A stretch of DNA of 52,815 nucleotides from Candidatus Uhrbacteria bacterium (GTDB lineage: Bacteria > Patescibacteriota > Patescibacteriia > UBA9934 > GWF2-40-263), in NCBI GenBank assembly GCA_013204385.1, contig JABMNY010000029.1, positions 1-52,815 of the forward strand. Direction: 5' to 3'. The notes under the pieces are model-generated. The model saw nothing but the letters and a program-made list of their open reading frames with translations, was not told where the DNA came from and did no database searches. Positions 1 through 44,700 of the stretch are shown here, piece after piece. The position numbers were made by a program, and so were the translations under genes. Within the stretch, counting starts at the first letter, position 1, and each line of letters starts with the position of its first letter.

Positions 1-48
1 CCCGCGCTCGCATCAGCTACCCGAGTGGGTTGCTGAGCGAAGCGCGGG
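1..48 (-). terminator. Large GC-rich terminator-like hairpin downstream of the 87..1153 gene
   Basis: CCCGCGCTTCGC-TCAGC-AACCC-ACTC-GGGT-AGCTGA-TGCGAGCGCGGG on the minus strand folds end to end; a similar fold occurs at 26188-26238. The window edge prevents seeing a U-tract. Confidence 0.6.
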
Positions 49-40119: not shown

Positions 40120-42411
40120 ATGAACGAAGCAAAACGTTTCGAAACTCAATGGGGAGGCCGCACTCTTTCTATTGAGGTAGGTAAGTACGCTCAACAAGCA
40201 GGTGGATCCTGTGTGGTTCAGTATGGAGACAGCGTGATTCTCGCAACTGCCACAATGAGTTCTGATGTGCGCGAGGGACTTCCATTCTTCCCGCTCATGG
40301 TGGACTACGAGGAAAAACTTTATGCAGCAGGTCGCATCAAAGGAAGTCGTTTCATGAAAAAAGAAGGACGCCCAACAGATGAAGCTGTTCTTATTTCTCG
40401 ATTCGTCGACCGCGCACTTCGACCACTCTTTGATGACCGCATCCGCAACGACATTCAAATCATCGTCACAGCGCTTTCATTTGATGGAGAAAACGACCCA
40501 GACATTCTTGCACTCATTGGGGCATCTTGCGCCCTGCACATCAGCGACATCCCATGGGGAGGCCCTATTGGATGTGTGCGTGTAGGACACGAAGACGGAA
40601 AGATGATCCTCAACCCAACATATAAAGAACGAGAAACTTCCATTCTTGATTTGAGTTTCGCAGGAACAAGCGAAAAAATCATCATGGTCGAAGCAGGTGG
40701 AAAAGAAACTCCAGAAGAAATAGTTTTGAATGCATTTTGGTTCGGACAAGAAAATATCGATGCTCCTATTAAATTGATTGAAGAAATTCGAACAGCTGTA
40801 GGAAAAGAAAAACGAGACCTTCTAAGTCCAAAAACAGACGAGGAAAAAATGGCTCTTGTAAAAAAGGAGGAGATTGAAACACTCGCACGACCATTCATTC
40901 TCGAGCAAGTGAAAGATTTATTCTTCTCAAATCTTCAAGCAACAAAAGGAGATCGAGGAACTCAGAAAAAGGAAGTAAAGGCTCGAACAAAAACATTTTT
41001 GAAAGAAAAGGGGATTGAATCAGAACACATCCACTTTGGAACCGACATCATCACTGAAGTACTTGAAGCAGAAGTTTCTCGTGCAATTATCGAAGAGGAT
41101 AAACGTGTCGATGGTCGTGGGATTACCGAAATCAGAAAGCTTGTAAATGAAGTCGCCGTACTTCCACGCGTTCATGGATCAGGTCATTTCATGCGTGGGG
41201 AAACACAGGTCCTTACGGTTGTAACCCTTGGTGCGCCTGGTGACGAGCAGACACTCGACGGCATGGAAACCGTTGGCACACAACGCTACTTTCATCACTA
41301 CAACTTCCCTCCATTCTCTGTAGGAGAAGTGAAGCCGATGCGCGGACCTTCACGTCGTGATATCGGGCACGGTGGTCTCGCTGAAAAGGCCTTGATGCCT
41401 ATGATGCCAGATAAGGAAACGTTTCCATACACCGTTCGAGCTGTTTCAGAGGTCTTTGGATCAAACGGATCAAGCTCTATGGGATCAACATGTGGATCAA
41501 CACTCGCCCTCATGGACGCAGGAGTACCGATCAAGGCACCTATTGCAGGACTAGCGATCGGAGTCGCAACGGATGATCAAGGTCGATGGAAGGTGATTAC
41601 AGATCTTCAGGACCTTGAAGATGGAAAGGGTGGAATGGACTTCAAAATTGCCGGTTCACGTGAAGGAATTACCGCCATTCAAATGGACACAAAAACAACT
41701 GGACTTTCGCCAGAGATTGTAAAACAGGCGTTCGCACAAGCACGAGATGCTCGTATAGAGCTCCTTGATGAAATCGCAAAAACGATTGCAGAACCTCGAG
41801 CAGAACTCTCTCCATACGCGCCTCGCATTATCACACTCAAGATCAACCCAGAACTGATCGGAAATGTGATCGGTCCTGGTGGAAAGACTATTAACGGTAT
41901 TATTGCAGACACAGGCGTTCAGGCGATTGATATAGATGACGATGGACTTGTCATGATCACTTCAACGGACGCAGCTGGTGCACAGAAAGCCTTTGACACT
42001 GTTCAACAACTCACCAGAGAGCCAAAAGTTGGTGAAACCTTTAAAGGAAAGGTAACCCGCATCATGGATTTCGGTGCCATTGTCGAATTTCTTCCTAAAC
42101 GTGATGGTATGGTGCATGTCAGCATGCTTGCTCCATGGCGCGTGGAGAACGTAACTGATATCGTAAAGATGGGTGATGAAGTATTCGTTAAAATCATGGA
42201 ACTTTCAGAAGGACGAACCAGTCTTTCAATGAAAGATGCTGAAGGAAATGTCTACCCAGAACGACCAGCAGGTGCTGCAGATTCAGGATCAGCTGGTGGT
42301 CCTCGCTCAGGTGGTCCTCGCTCAGGAGGGCGATCTCATAGCTCAGGTGGGGGACGACCAGGTGGAAGCAGACCTCCTTCTGCTCCACGACCTCCACGAA
42401 GTGATGCTTAA
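40120..42411 (+). CDS. pnp: Polynucleotide phosphorylase, Gly/Arg/Ser-rich C-terminal tail
   Basis: GGRTLSIEVGKYAQQAGGSCVVQYGDSVILATAT; KH and S1 domains; tail GGPRSGGPRSGGRSHSSGGGRPGGSRPPSAPRPPRSDA. Confidence 0.95.
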   Translation: MNEAKRFETQWGGRTLSIEVGKYAQQAGGSCVVQYGDSVILATATMSSDVREGLPFFPLMVDYEEKLYAAGRIKGSRFMKKEGRPTDEAVLISRFVDRALRPLFDDRIRNDIQIIVTALSFDGENDPDILALIGASCALHISDIPWGGPIGCVRVGHEDGKMILNPTYKERETSILDLSFAGTSEKIIMVEAGGKETPEEIVLNAFWFGQENIDAPIKLIEEIRTAVGKEKRDLLSPKTDEEKMALVKKEEIETLARPFILEQVKDLFFSNLQATKGDRGTQKKEVKARTKTFLKEKGIESEHIHFGTDIITEVLEAEVSRAIIEEDKRVDGRGITEIRKLVNEVAVLPRVHGSGHFMRGETQVLTVVTLGAPGDEQTLDGMETVGTQRYFHHYNFPPFSVGEVKPMRGPSRRDIGHGGLAEKALMPMMPDKETFPYTVRAVSEVFGSNGSSSMGSTCGSTLALMDAGVPIKAPIAGLAIGVATDDQGRWKVITDLQDLEDGKGGMDFKIAGSREGITAIQMDTKTTGLSPEIVKQAFAQARDARIELLDEIAKTIAEPRAELSPYAPRIITLKINPELIGNVIGPGGKTINGIIADTGVQAIDIDDDGLVMITSTDAAGAQKAFDTVQQLTREPKVGETFKGKVTRIMDFGAIVEFLPKRDGMVHVSMLAPWRVENVTDIVKMGDEVFVKIMELSEGRTSLSMKDAEGNVYPERPAGAADSGSAGGPRSGGPRSGGRSHSSGGGRPGGSRPPSAPRPPRSDA

Positions 42412-42412
42412 C

Positions 42413-43696
42413 ATGCAACGACTCAATATTCCATTTTCTCGACATACAACAACAACCCGCCGTAATCGGCGGGTTGTTTGGCTTTTGATAGGCCTATTAG
42501 GAGTTTTTCTCGTTCTTCTGAGTCGAATCGGAATACTTTGGTTTAGTCGAGGGGAAATCCTTTCTCTTGCACCATCCAACACGGTCTTAGCTATCCAGGT
42601 ACAAATCACTCAAACAACCGAACCTTTTCTCTCAAATTGGCTTTCAGGAGTTCCGCTTATCTCAAATCGAAGTATTGAATTTAGTGATATTCTCCCAATG
42701 ACAAAAGGAGAACTCGCTCTCTTTGTAACGAGTTCTGGTGGAAGAAGCATTGCTATTAGAGCCAACAAAAGTGCTATCAATACAGAACTTCTCGAAACCT
42801 ATTCTATTTCCATTCAAGAGAGTGGTTCATTTTTACTTCTTTCTGAAACTCTTCTCCCAATTAGTGGAACAGATCCGTTGGTACACAGATCCTTTTTCCC
42901 CTCAGTAGGAAAAAGATGGTTTGGAAGAGTAGTTCTCCCAGAAGAAGGAATTGGAGGGAACATCTTTTCATCAACCGACAAGCTCTCAATTGAGTTCAAT
43001 ACTGAGAAAAAGCAAATAAAGGAACAGCAAGTCATTCCCAATCTCGGTCTTTCAATTGGAGACCTTATGTGGGGGGAGGAGATTCCACTTACACCTCTTA
43101 CACACCTAATCGAACCGTTTGTCCAAGATGGAGTAGACAAACCATTTTTCCTAAATACAAACTCTCTCCTTAAAGTTTTCATTCAAGAGACGGAAACAGG
43201 AAGAAGGACTCTTATTGTACAAAAAGAGGCAAATCCGGATTCGACAACAATCATTCGTGATCTTCAACTCATTGGAGCATTTTCAAAACCAACAATTAGC
43301 GCGACAACACTCTCTGACGGGACTCTTTATCAAGAAATTGAGGTTCATCCAGATCTTGTAAGTGTCGAAGAAATATCTACAAATCTTGGGCTTTCTTATC
43401 GAGTTTCAACAGAAAACGGCTCCGCTGTTTTTGCAAGTGTCTATGAGAAAGATCTGCTTATATCGGATAGTCAGGAGCTTCTTGAGTCTTACGGGAAGGA
43501 CGCGGTTACGGTAGATGAATCCTCTGTCTGTCTTGCGAACTCAGATTATTTAAACCCATCATTTATTCTTTCTGAAACATCAAGCAATTACTATAATCCA
43601 CAACATAGTTTCTTCTATGAACTTTTTGATCAAATATCTGGTATTTCTCTTGAGTTCAATAAGTATTCAACGATAGTTACTCTGTGTAAAAATTAG
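42413..43696 (+). CDS. Hypothetical single-TM protein
   Basis: MQRLNIPFSRHTTTTRRNRRVVWLLIGLLGVFLVLLSRIGILWF; immediately follows pnp. Confidence 0.6.
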   Translation: MQRLNIPFSRHTTTTRRNRRVVWLLIGLLGVFLVLLSRIGILWFSRGEILSLAPSNTVLAIQVQITQTTEPFLSNWLSGVPLISNRSIEFSDILPMTKGELALFVTSSGGRSIAIRANKSAINTELLETYSISIQESGSFLLLSETLLPISGTDPLVHRSFFPSVGKRWFGRVVLPEEGIGGNIFSSTDKLSIEFNTEKKQIKEQQVIPNLGLSIGDLMWGEEIPLTPLTHLIEPFVQDGVDKPFFLNTNSLLKVFIQETETGRRTLIVQKEANPDSTTIIRDLQLIGAFSKPTISATTLSDGTLYQEIEVHPDLVSVEEISTNLGLSYRVSTENGSAVFASVYEKDLLISDSQELLESYGKDAVTVDESSVCLANSDYLNPSFILSETSSNYYNPQHSFFYELFDQISGISLEFNKYSTIVTLCKN

Positions 43697-43819
43697 GTGT
43701 GGATAAACTCTTCATAAGTTCATAAAACTGTGGATAAATAGAGGAGTGTGAACTTTTGTATGAACACCTAATTTCTCATCACGCTCATTATCACACTAAT
43801 ATTAGCGAATATTCATGGA

Positions 43820-43848
43820 TTGACTTAAGGTCAATTTTTTGGTATCAT
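43820..43848 (+). promoter_or_regulatory. Strong sigma70-type promoter for the structured RNA
   Basis: TTGACT - 17 - TATCAT. Confidence 0.75.
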
Positions 43849-43854
43849 ACTTGT

Positions 43855-44235
43855 GTAAGTAGTTCTTTCACACCACTCTTGGGAGGTTTTCCGAAACCAC
43901 TTCGCGATTCATCGCCAGACACCCCACGTCTGAGTGATTATTTCGGGGAACGTCCTACCGTCTTTACTGTTCAGCAAACAAAAAACAAAAACAAAAGCGA
44001 AGTTTCTAGGTTCGCTCGCAATTATGACGCACCTTCGGGTGCGCCCGTGAGTAAAACCAATGAATGGTAAGAACGGACGAGTACGATTCTCGCTGGATGA
44101 TTGTGTGTGTCTTAAGGGTATTGAGTCTTGTAACCAAACCACTTGGTTCCAGAACCCAATACCTAAACAGATCCTCATCATACAGCCCTTAGAGGGCACC
44201 CCCACTACTTCAACAAGCGGGCTTGCCCTCTTTCT
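43855..44235 (+). ncRNA. Candidate structured non-coding RNA, class unassigned
   Basis: Serial hairpins GGTTT-TCCG-AAACC, GCGAT-TC-ATCGC, CAGAC-ACCCCAC-GTCTG, GCGAA...TTCGC, CGCACC-TTCG-GGTGCG, GGTATTG...CAATACC; terminator GAGGGCA...TGCCCTCTTT. Confidence 0.6.
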
Positions 44236-44325
44236 ATTTCTCAAATTAATTGCTATTCTTAGTTTACTTGATACGTATTTCGTTAATTATTCATACGTTC
44301 TACACCTGATCATAAAAACACTTAT

Positions 44326-44700
44326 ATGGGATCTGATTTTGTCGAGAAAATGAAAACACACCTCGAAGCTGAGAAAATTCGACTAGAAACTGAACTTTCT
44401 CGATTTGCGCATCGAAATACTAAACCTGGCGAACCAGAGTTTCAGTCCGAATTTCCAAATATTGGCGATAAGGAGGATGAAAATGCCTCTGAGGTAGCTC
44501 AATTCTCAGACAACCTCTCACTTGAGGATGAGCTTGAAAAAGCACTTCGAGATGTTGAGTCTGCATTGAAAGTGATTGAAAAAGGGGAATACGGTATCTG
44601 TAAATATTGTCATCAAAAAATTGACGAAAGACGACTCGTCGCTCGACCAACATCAAGTTCATGTATTCAGTGTAAAAAGACACTCACCCAAGAAGTGTGA
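44326..44700 (+). CDS. DksA/TraR-type zinc-finger protein
   Basis: ALKVIEKGEYGICKYCHQKIDERRLVARPTSSSCIQCKK. Confidence 0.88.
   Translation: MGSDFVEKMKTHLEAEKIRLETELSRFAHRNTKPGEPEFQSEFPNIGDKEDENASEVAQFSDNLSLEDELEKALRDVESALKVIEKGEYGICKYCHQKIDERRLVARPTSSSCIQCKKTLTQEV

Follow-up and report, generated by a model that had tools for sequence, protein, structure and literature searches.

A candidate trans-acting structured RNA gene with upstream DnaA boxes and a DksA/TraR-like neighbour in Candidatus Uhrbacteria and other Patescibacteria

We identified a gene for a structured noncoding RNA of ~385 nt in the genome of a member of Candidatus Uhrbacteria, which are placed in the class ABY1 of Patescibacteria. 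Members of this phylum are tiny, mostly uncultured, and represent a large part of bacterial diversity; their genomes are ~1 Mb in size, and few of their regulators are known. The DNA we analyzed, hereafter the window, is 52,815 nucleotides long and corresponds to an entire contig (G000:C20); the assembly totals 1.05 Mb. The gene occupies 43855 to 44240 on the forward strand, with ends estimated from its promoter and terminator. With a probability of roughly 0.6, we consider it a standalone gene whose highly structured RNA would act in trans. Judged by sequence and covariance-model searches, the RNA is a family without a known relative in the resources searched.

The hallmarks of a trans-acting structured RNA were found together: a covarying structure, a promoter and terminator of its own, and no conserved open reading frame (ORF). 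The original prediction had proposed a strongly promoted, terminator-bounded structured RNA without a convincing ORF, and each element was borne out. The consensus promoter TTGACT-17-TATCAT is in place, and promoters of similar build (TTGAC-15..19-TANNNT) precede the core of the RNA in 76 of 86 homologous loci, compared with 2.4 expected. The terminator hairpin, AGAGGGCA/TGCCCTCT, is followed by a run of T residues. The folding energy of the region has a z score of -4.77, and none of 100 shuffles was equally stable. We rejected a coding gene: of 19 homologues, 17-19 had a stop codon in any given forward frame of their core, and the length of the longest ORF ranged from 35 to 111 amino acids. 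One copy of the RNA was detected in nearly every genome with a match. The intergenic region that holds the gene also carries two DnaA boxes and a boxA-like site. The features are collected in Table 1.

Table 1. Positions of the RNA gene, its structural elements, its presumptive control sites and its neighbours in the window
Feature	Position	Strand	Remarks
pnp	40120-42411		upstream neighbourhood
Membrane-anchored protein gene	42236-43696		between pnp and the RNA; no Pfam match; ~450-aa gene at the same place in much of the class
DnaA box 1, TGTGGATAA	43698..43706	+	113 bp before the -35; spacing nearly fixed across Uhrbacteria genera
DnaA box 2, TGTGGATAA	43729..43737	+	31-bp spacing to box 1; 82 bp before the -35
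Palindrome CTAATATTAG	43796..43805	.	upstream of promoter; many homologues have similar sites (CTAA...TTAG)
Promoter TTGACT-17-TATCAT	43820..43848	+	-35 at 43820-43825, -10 at 43843-43848
RNA gene	43855..44240	+	comparison, folding, homologues, covariation
boxA-like AGTTCTTT	43861..43868	+	near RNA 5' end; GTTC[CT]TT in 42/86 loci vs 3.9 expected
P2 5' strand GGGAGGUUUUCCGAAA	43881..43896	+	pairs with 43941-43956; 96% of cells paired
P2 3' strand	43941..43956	+	covariation analysis, 77-pair structure
P2 internal G.G mismatch	within 43881-43896/43941-43956	+	A.A in L019 and L020
P3 hairpin CAGAC-ACCCCAC-GUCUG	43916..43932	+	4/5 pairs with two-sided changes, 96% paired
P5 5' strand, CUUUACUGUUC and outer CCGU	43958..43972	+	U of the near-invariant U.G wobble lies here
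A-rich single-stranded tract, core AAAACAAAAACAAAA	43976..43997	+	near-invariant in alignment A1; retained in most distant homologues
P6, GGUU/AACC and GCUCGC/GUGAGU	44009..44058	+	covariation; capped by P6a
P6a CGCACC-UUCG-GGUGCG	44028-44043	+	covariation; caps P6
P5 3' strand, GAAUGGUAAGA and outer ACGG	44062..44076	+	covariation, core and 77-pair structure
P7 long hairpin	44116..44164	+	13/19 pairs with two-sided changes, 93% paired
P7 conserved A.C mismatch	44124/44156	+	comparison of homologues
Intrinsic terminator	44191-44198/44224-44231; whole 44191..44239	+	hairpin, then T-run; sequence; helix 7 of 77-pair structure
DksA/TraR-like C4 zinc-finger gene	44326..44700	+	PF01258; E. coli DksA is the nearest solved structure, E=1.9e-10

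Comparison of homologues revealed a conserved, covarying fold. For 16 Uhrbacteria sequences, a structure of 77 pairs had 91.4% of its cells paired and two-sided changes at 35 pairs, with a covariation value of 0.314 against a maximum of 0.111 in slid controls (0/500 shuffles). Across the class, the core domain in 76 sequences showed two-sided changes at 22 of 25 pairs and a covariation value of 0.446 (control maximum, 0.089), a value favoured by the fitting of this alignment to the structure; the MAFFT alignment A1 gave 0.423, with a control maximum of 0.129. In 73 of 74 sequences, P5 contains a U.G wobble beside near-invariant C-G and A-U pairs.

Several helices had been drawn beforehand from the window alone. 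The CAGAC/GTCTG hairpin (P3), the UUCG-capped CGCACC/GGTGCG stem (P6a) and the GGTATTG/CAATACC stem with its inner AACCAA/TTGGTT proved to be real, being conserved or covarying, and the A-rich linker was likewise real and conserved. Other pairings gave way to alternatives. A GGTTT/AAACC hairpin was not supported because its bases belong to the longer conserved helix P2, and a pseudoknot between the CCCC of the P3 loop and a downstream CGGGG fell because the latter sits in the 3' strand of P2. A GCGAA/TTCGC stem was abandoned since many homologues read TTAGC at this place, and GGTT pairs instead with AACC (44055-44058).

The most conserved element of the RNA was the single-stranded tract AAAACAAAAACAAAA. 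Hfq (PF17209) was found in five control genomes and in none of 20 relatives, and we therefore rejected an Hfq-binding A-tract. Four loci outside the class (L236, L239, L243, and L244) carry a second A-rich tract (for example, ACATAAAACAAAAATTG) 3' of the first. Relatives outside Uhrbacteria have an extra hairpin before the A-tract, the loop of which pairs with a loop just 3' of P5. These loop-loop pairs are maintained while their sequence changes (UCUAGUC/GACUAGA, UCUAACC/GGUUAGA, GCCGAUC/GGUCGGC, and UCCAAUCU/AGAUUGGA). An unrestricted test for loop-loop complementarity was not significant, with the observed value reached in 618 of 2000 permutations. A restricted test, which was framed after inspecting the sequences and ignores relatedness and is hence supportive only, gave 0 of 5000.

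The RNA is widespread. Using blastn, we found it in 21 of 59 relatives; three successive rounds of covariance models of the P5-P6 core then recovered it from 33, 69, and 138 of the same 384 genomes of the class. As the count approximately doubled with each round, the true share in the class is probably higher than 138/384. Within the window's own family, Candidatus Uhrbacteria, 20 of 22 sampled genomes contained the RNA, while the sampled genomes of another family of the order (f4) had none. A phylum-wide sample of 300 genomes yielded 20 matches, 13 of them outside the class, so that a few further classes also have homologues. Six of these out-of-class loci (L234, L236, L239, L242, L243, and L244) share the same downstream gene, which the covariance model did not use in finding them. 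Two matches, L082 and the out-of-class L240, lie within coding DNA and were discarded as false positives of the model. A likely homologue also occurs on a partly N-masked contig labelled Candidatus Firestonebacteria (L089:6592-6737); this may be a mis-binned Patescibacteria contig or a true occurrence outside the phylum.

No known RNA family accounted for the region. When the window was scanned with cmscan against the 4227 families of Rfam 15, tRNAs were the sole matches, and the RNA region had no credible family at E<=10. At loci with distant homologues, tRNAs alone exceeded the gathering score and matches at E<=1 were at chance level. ARAGORN detected nothing in the RNA region, and the covariance models for OLE, ROOL, and GOLLD matched neither this region nor the distant-homologue loci. 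The original prediction had left the choice between a divergent tmRNA and an undescribed class. The tmRNA half of this proposal failed, as the genome carries its own tmRNA on a separate contig (G000:C22, 98.5 bits). The other half was supported: the RNA combines strong covariation and wide conservation with no Rfam match, and we came across no account of it in the searched, mostly open-access papers on structured RNAs in this phylum, an absence that, given this scope, is weak evidence.

We next consider the sequences upstream of the RNA. The two exact DnaA boxes are the only ones in the window (43698-43737), and at 70 of 84 loci (0.27 expected) the 450 nt preceding the core contain an exact box. 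In most Uhrbacteria genera the boxes are 31 bp apart and the pair lies 82-85 bp from the -35; where the distance to the -35 differs (71 bp in L074, 63 bp in L072 and L076), the shifts are roughly whole helical turns. An arrangement this constant is suggestive of DnaA action at the RNA promoter. In two genomes (G008 and G009), the pair is the sole exact close pair in 400-kb stretches, and the cumulative GC-skew minima are 11 and 22 kb from the RNA; GC skew in a third, G131, was uninformative for oriC. In seven genomes dnaA and the RNA share a contig, where they are 5-56 kb apart. The boxes are a candidate oriC or a candidate DnaA-regulated promoter for the class. Other potential control sites are the upstream palindrome CTAATATTAG, which is possibly the site of an unknown regulator, and the palindrome TTGACTTAAGGTCAA (43820-43834), in which the -35 is embedded. 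Both arms of the latter are kept in many Uhrbacteria (for example, TTGACCAATGGTCAA), and it looks like an operator. The boxA-like site recalls ribosomal RNA leaders, where GUUCUUU also occurs shortly after the start site; here, however, the ~385-nt structured RNA and its terminator come next rather than 16S rRNA, which was not found in this assembly.

The gene downstream of the RNA encodes a DksA/TraR-like protein. In 75 of 86 loci, some of them outside the class, it follows the RNA on the same strand; one further locus has a DksA/TraR-like frame upstream of the RNA, and about ten have a recognizable RNA without this gene. From ORF lengths and the Pfam matches in the window, we infer that the gene order in much of the class is pnp, the ~450-aa protein, the DnaA boxes, the RNA, the DksA/TraR-like gene, and lspA. 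In two out-of-class loci (L236 and L243), the upstream gene is recA-like by eye and the DksA/TraR-like gene is retained. Farther downstream, the window contains an ORF with a PaaX central/Cas2-like domain (PF20803, PF09827; 46847-47374).

This recurrent neighbour raises the question of whether the RNA is a long cis-acting leader, a riboswitch or attenuator that controls the DksA/TraR-like gene through termination or read-through. The linkage, which persists where recA rather than pnp lies upstream, and the position of the terminator just before the gene would fit such a leader. However, 39 of 76 loci have promoter-like extended -10 sites beyond the terminator, compared with 10.1 expected, favouring two transcription units, and the DksA/TraR-like gene is apparently transcribed separately. 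The loci that have the RNA without the gene, and the distance of the most conserved parts of the RNA from the terminator, also make a leader unlikely. Alternatively, the conserved entity could be the DNA, if the region is a replication origin and the transcript reflects only origin-proximal transcription. The recurrent boxes, the proximity of dnaA, the nearby skew minima, and the solitary box pairs are all consistent with an origin, but the covariation and the conserved single-stranded elements are located past the boxes, within the RNA, and out-of-class homologues such as L236 and L243 retain the RNA with no evident DnaA box. We therefore regard an origin by itself as quite improbable.

Two further alternatives concern the nature of the RNA. 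Its size, strong promoter, and wide conservation resemble those of housekeeping RNAs, and a small SRP RNA (RF00169) was not found in the genome (G000) by model search; these points would fit a strongly diverged tmRNA, RNase P RNA, SRP RNA, or 6S RNA. tmRNA (RF00023) in particular is of comparable length, with several stems and an A-rich single strand, but we found neither a tRNA-like domain nor a tag ORF in our RNA. RNase P RNA (RF00010) is similar in length and complexity, but its covariance model did not match, and a separate copy scores 146.8 bits on another contig (G000:C18). The presence of both RNAs elsewhere in the genome led us to reject these identities. We also rejected SRP RNA, as the RNA region had no SRP match at E<=10, and 6S RNA (RF00013), whose model did not match. 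6S RNA, which binds the RNA polymerase holoenzyme, is likewise terminator-bounded and single-copy, and a possible link of our RNA to the polymerase would run through its DksA/TraR-like neighbour. The folds differ: 6S RNA forms a single extended hairpin that opens into a central, open-promoter-like bubble, whereas the covarying fold of the Uhrbacteria RNA is multi-domain with an A-tract. With neither the region nor its distant homologues matching Rfam credibly, a diverged housekeeping RNA is extremely improbable. Somewhat less remote, but still very unlikely, is an ornate RNA-only assembly that oligomerizes through loop-loop contacts, as OLE/ROOL/GOLLD-type RNAs assemble through A-minor contacts and kissing loops (PMC12286853). 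Those RNAs are also large, structured, bacterial, and found by covariation, and the elaborate fold, the A-rich strand, and the covarying loop-loop pairing in relatives, which could be intra- or intermolecular, are compatible with an assembly of this kind. Against this, our RNA is smaller, has no Rfam match, differs in fold, hosts, and gene context, and in Uhrbacteria, the window's own family, lacks the loop-loop hairpin.

We thus favour a standalone, trans-acting housekeeping RNA, most likely part of a ribonucleoprotein, with the counterpoint that linkage to its neighbour could reflect slow rearrangement of the region. The chances are about even that transcription of the RNA is modulated by DnaA bound at the boxes, which would couple it to growth or replication; the boxes may instead belong to oriC. 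At somewhat less than even odds, the boxA-like leader would help RNA polymerase through an untranslated, hairpin-rich unit. It is doubtful, though conceivable, that the A-tract and loops bind a protein of the transcription machinery, be it RNA polymerase, the DksA/TraR-like factor, or both, making the RNA 6S-like without being 6S. The 20 relatives had no match to Hfq, which would be the obvious protein to bind the A-tract, and the RNA has no single long bubbled hairpin. Joint action of the RNA and the DksA/TraR-like factor on transcription would be the weakest step of the mechanism. The complete picture, an ancient Patescibacteria housekeeping RNA that is expressed from a DnaA-controlled promoter near the origin and, together with a DksA-like factor, targets RNA polymerase, is more speculative still, and we consider it rather unlikely.

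An RNA of ~385 nt that occurs across dozens of families and is absent from Rfam and from the papers searched would rank among the more widespread structured bacterial RNAs with no assigned function. With a covariance model for it, its gene could be marked during genome annotation, and the DnaA-box promoter and DksA/TraR-like neighbour provide concrete handles on its role. The RNA may be a basic component of these cells that has not yet been described and, if the complete picture is true, would provide a route by which an RNA ties gene expression to the initiation of replication, in a phylum whose regulation is minimal.
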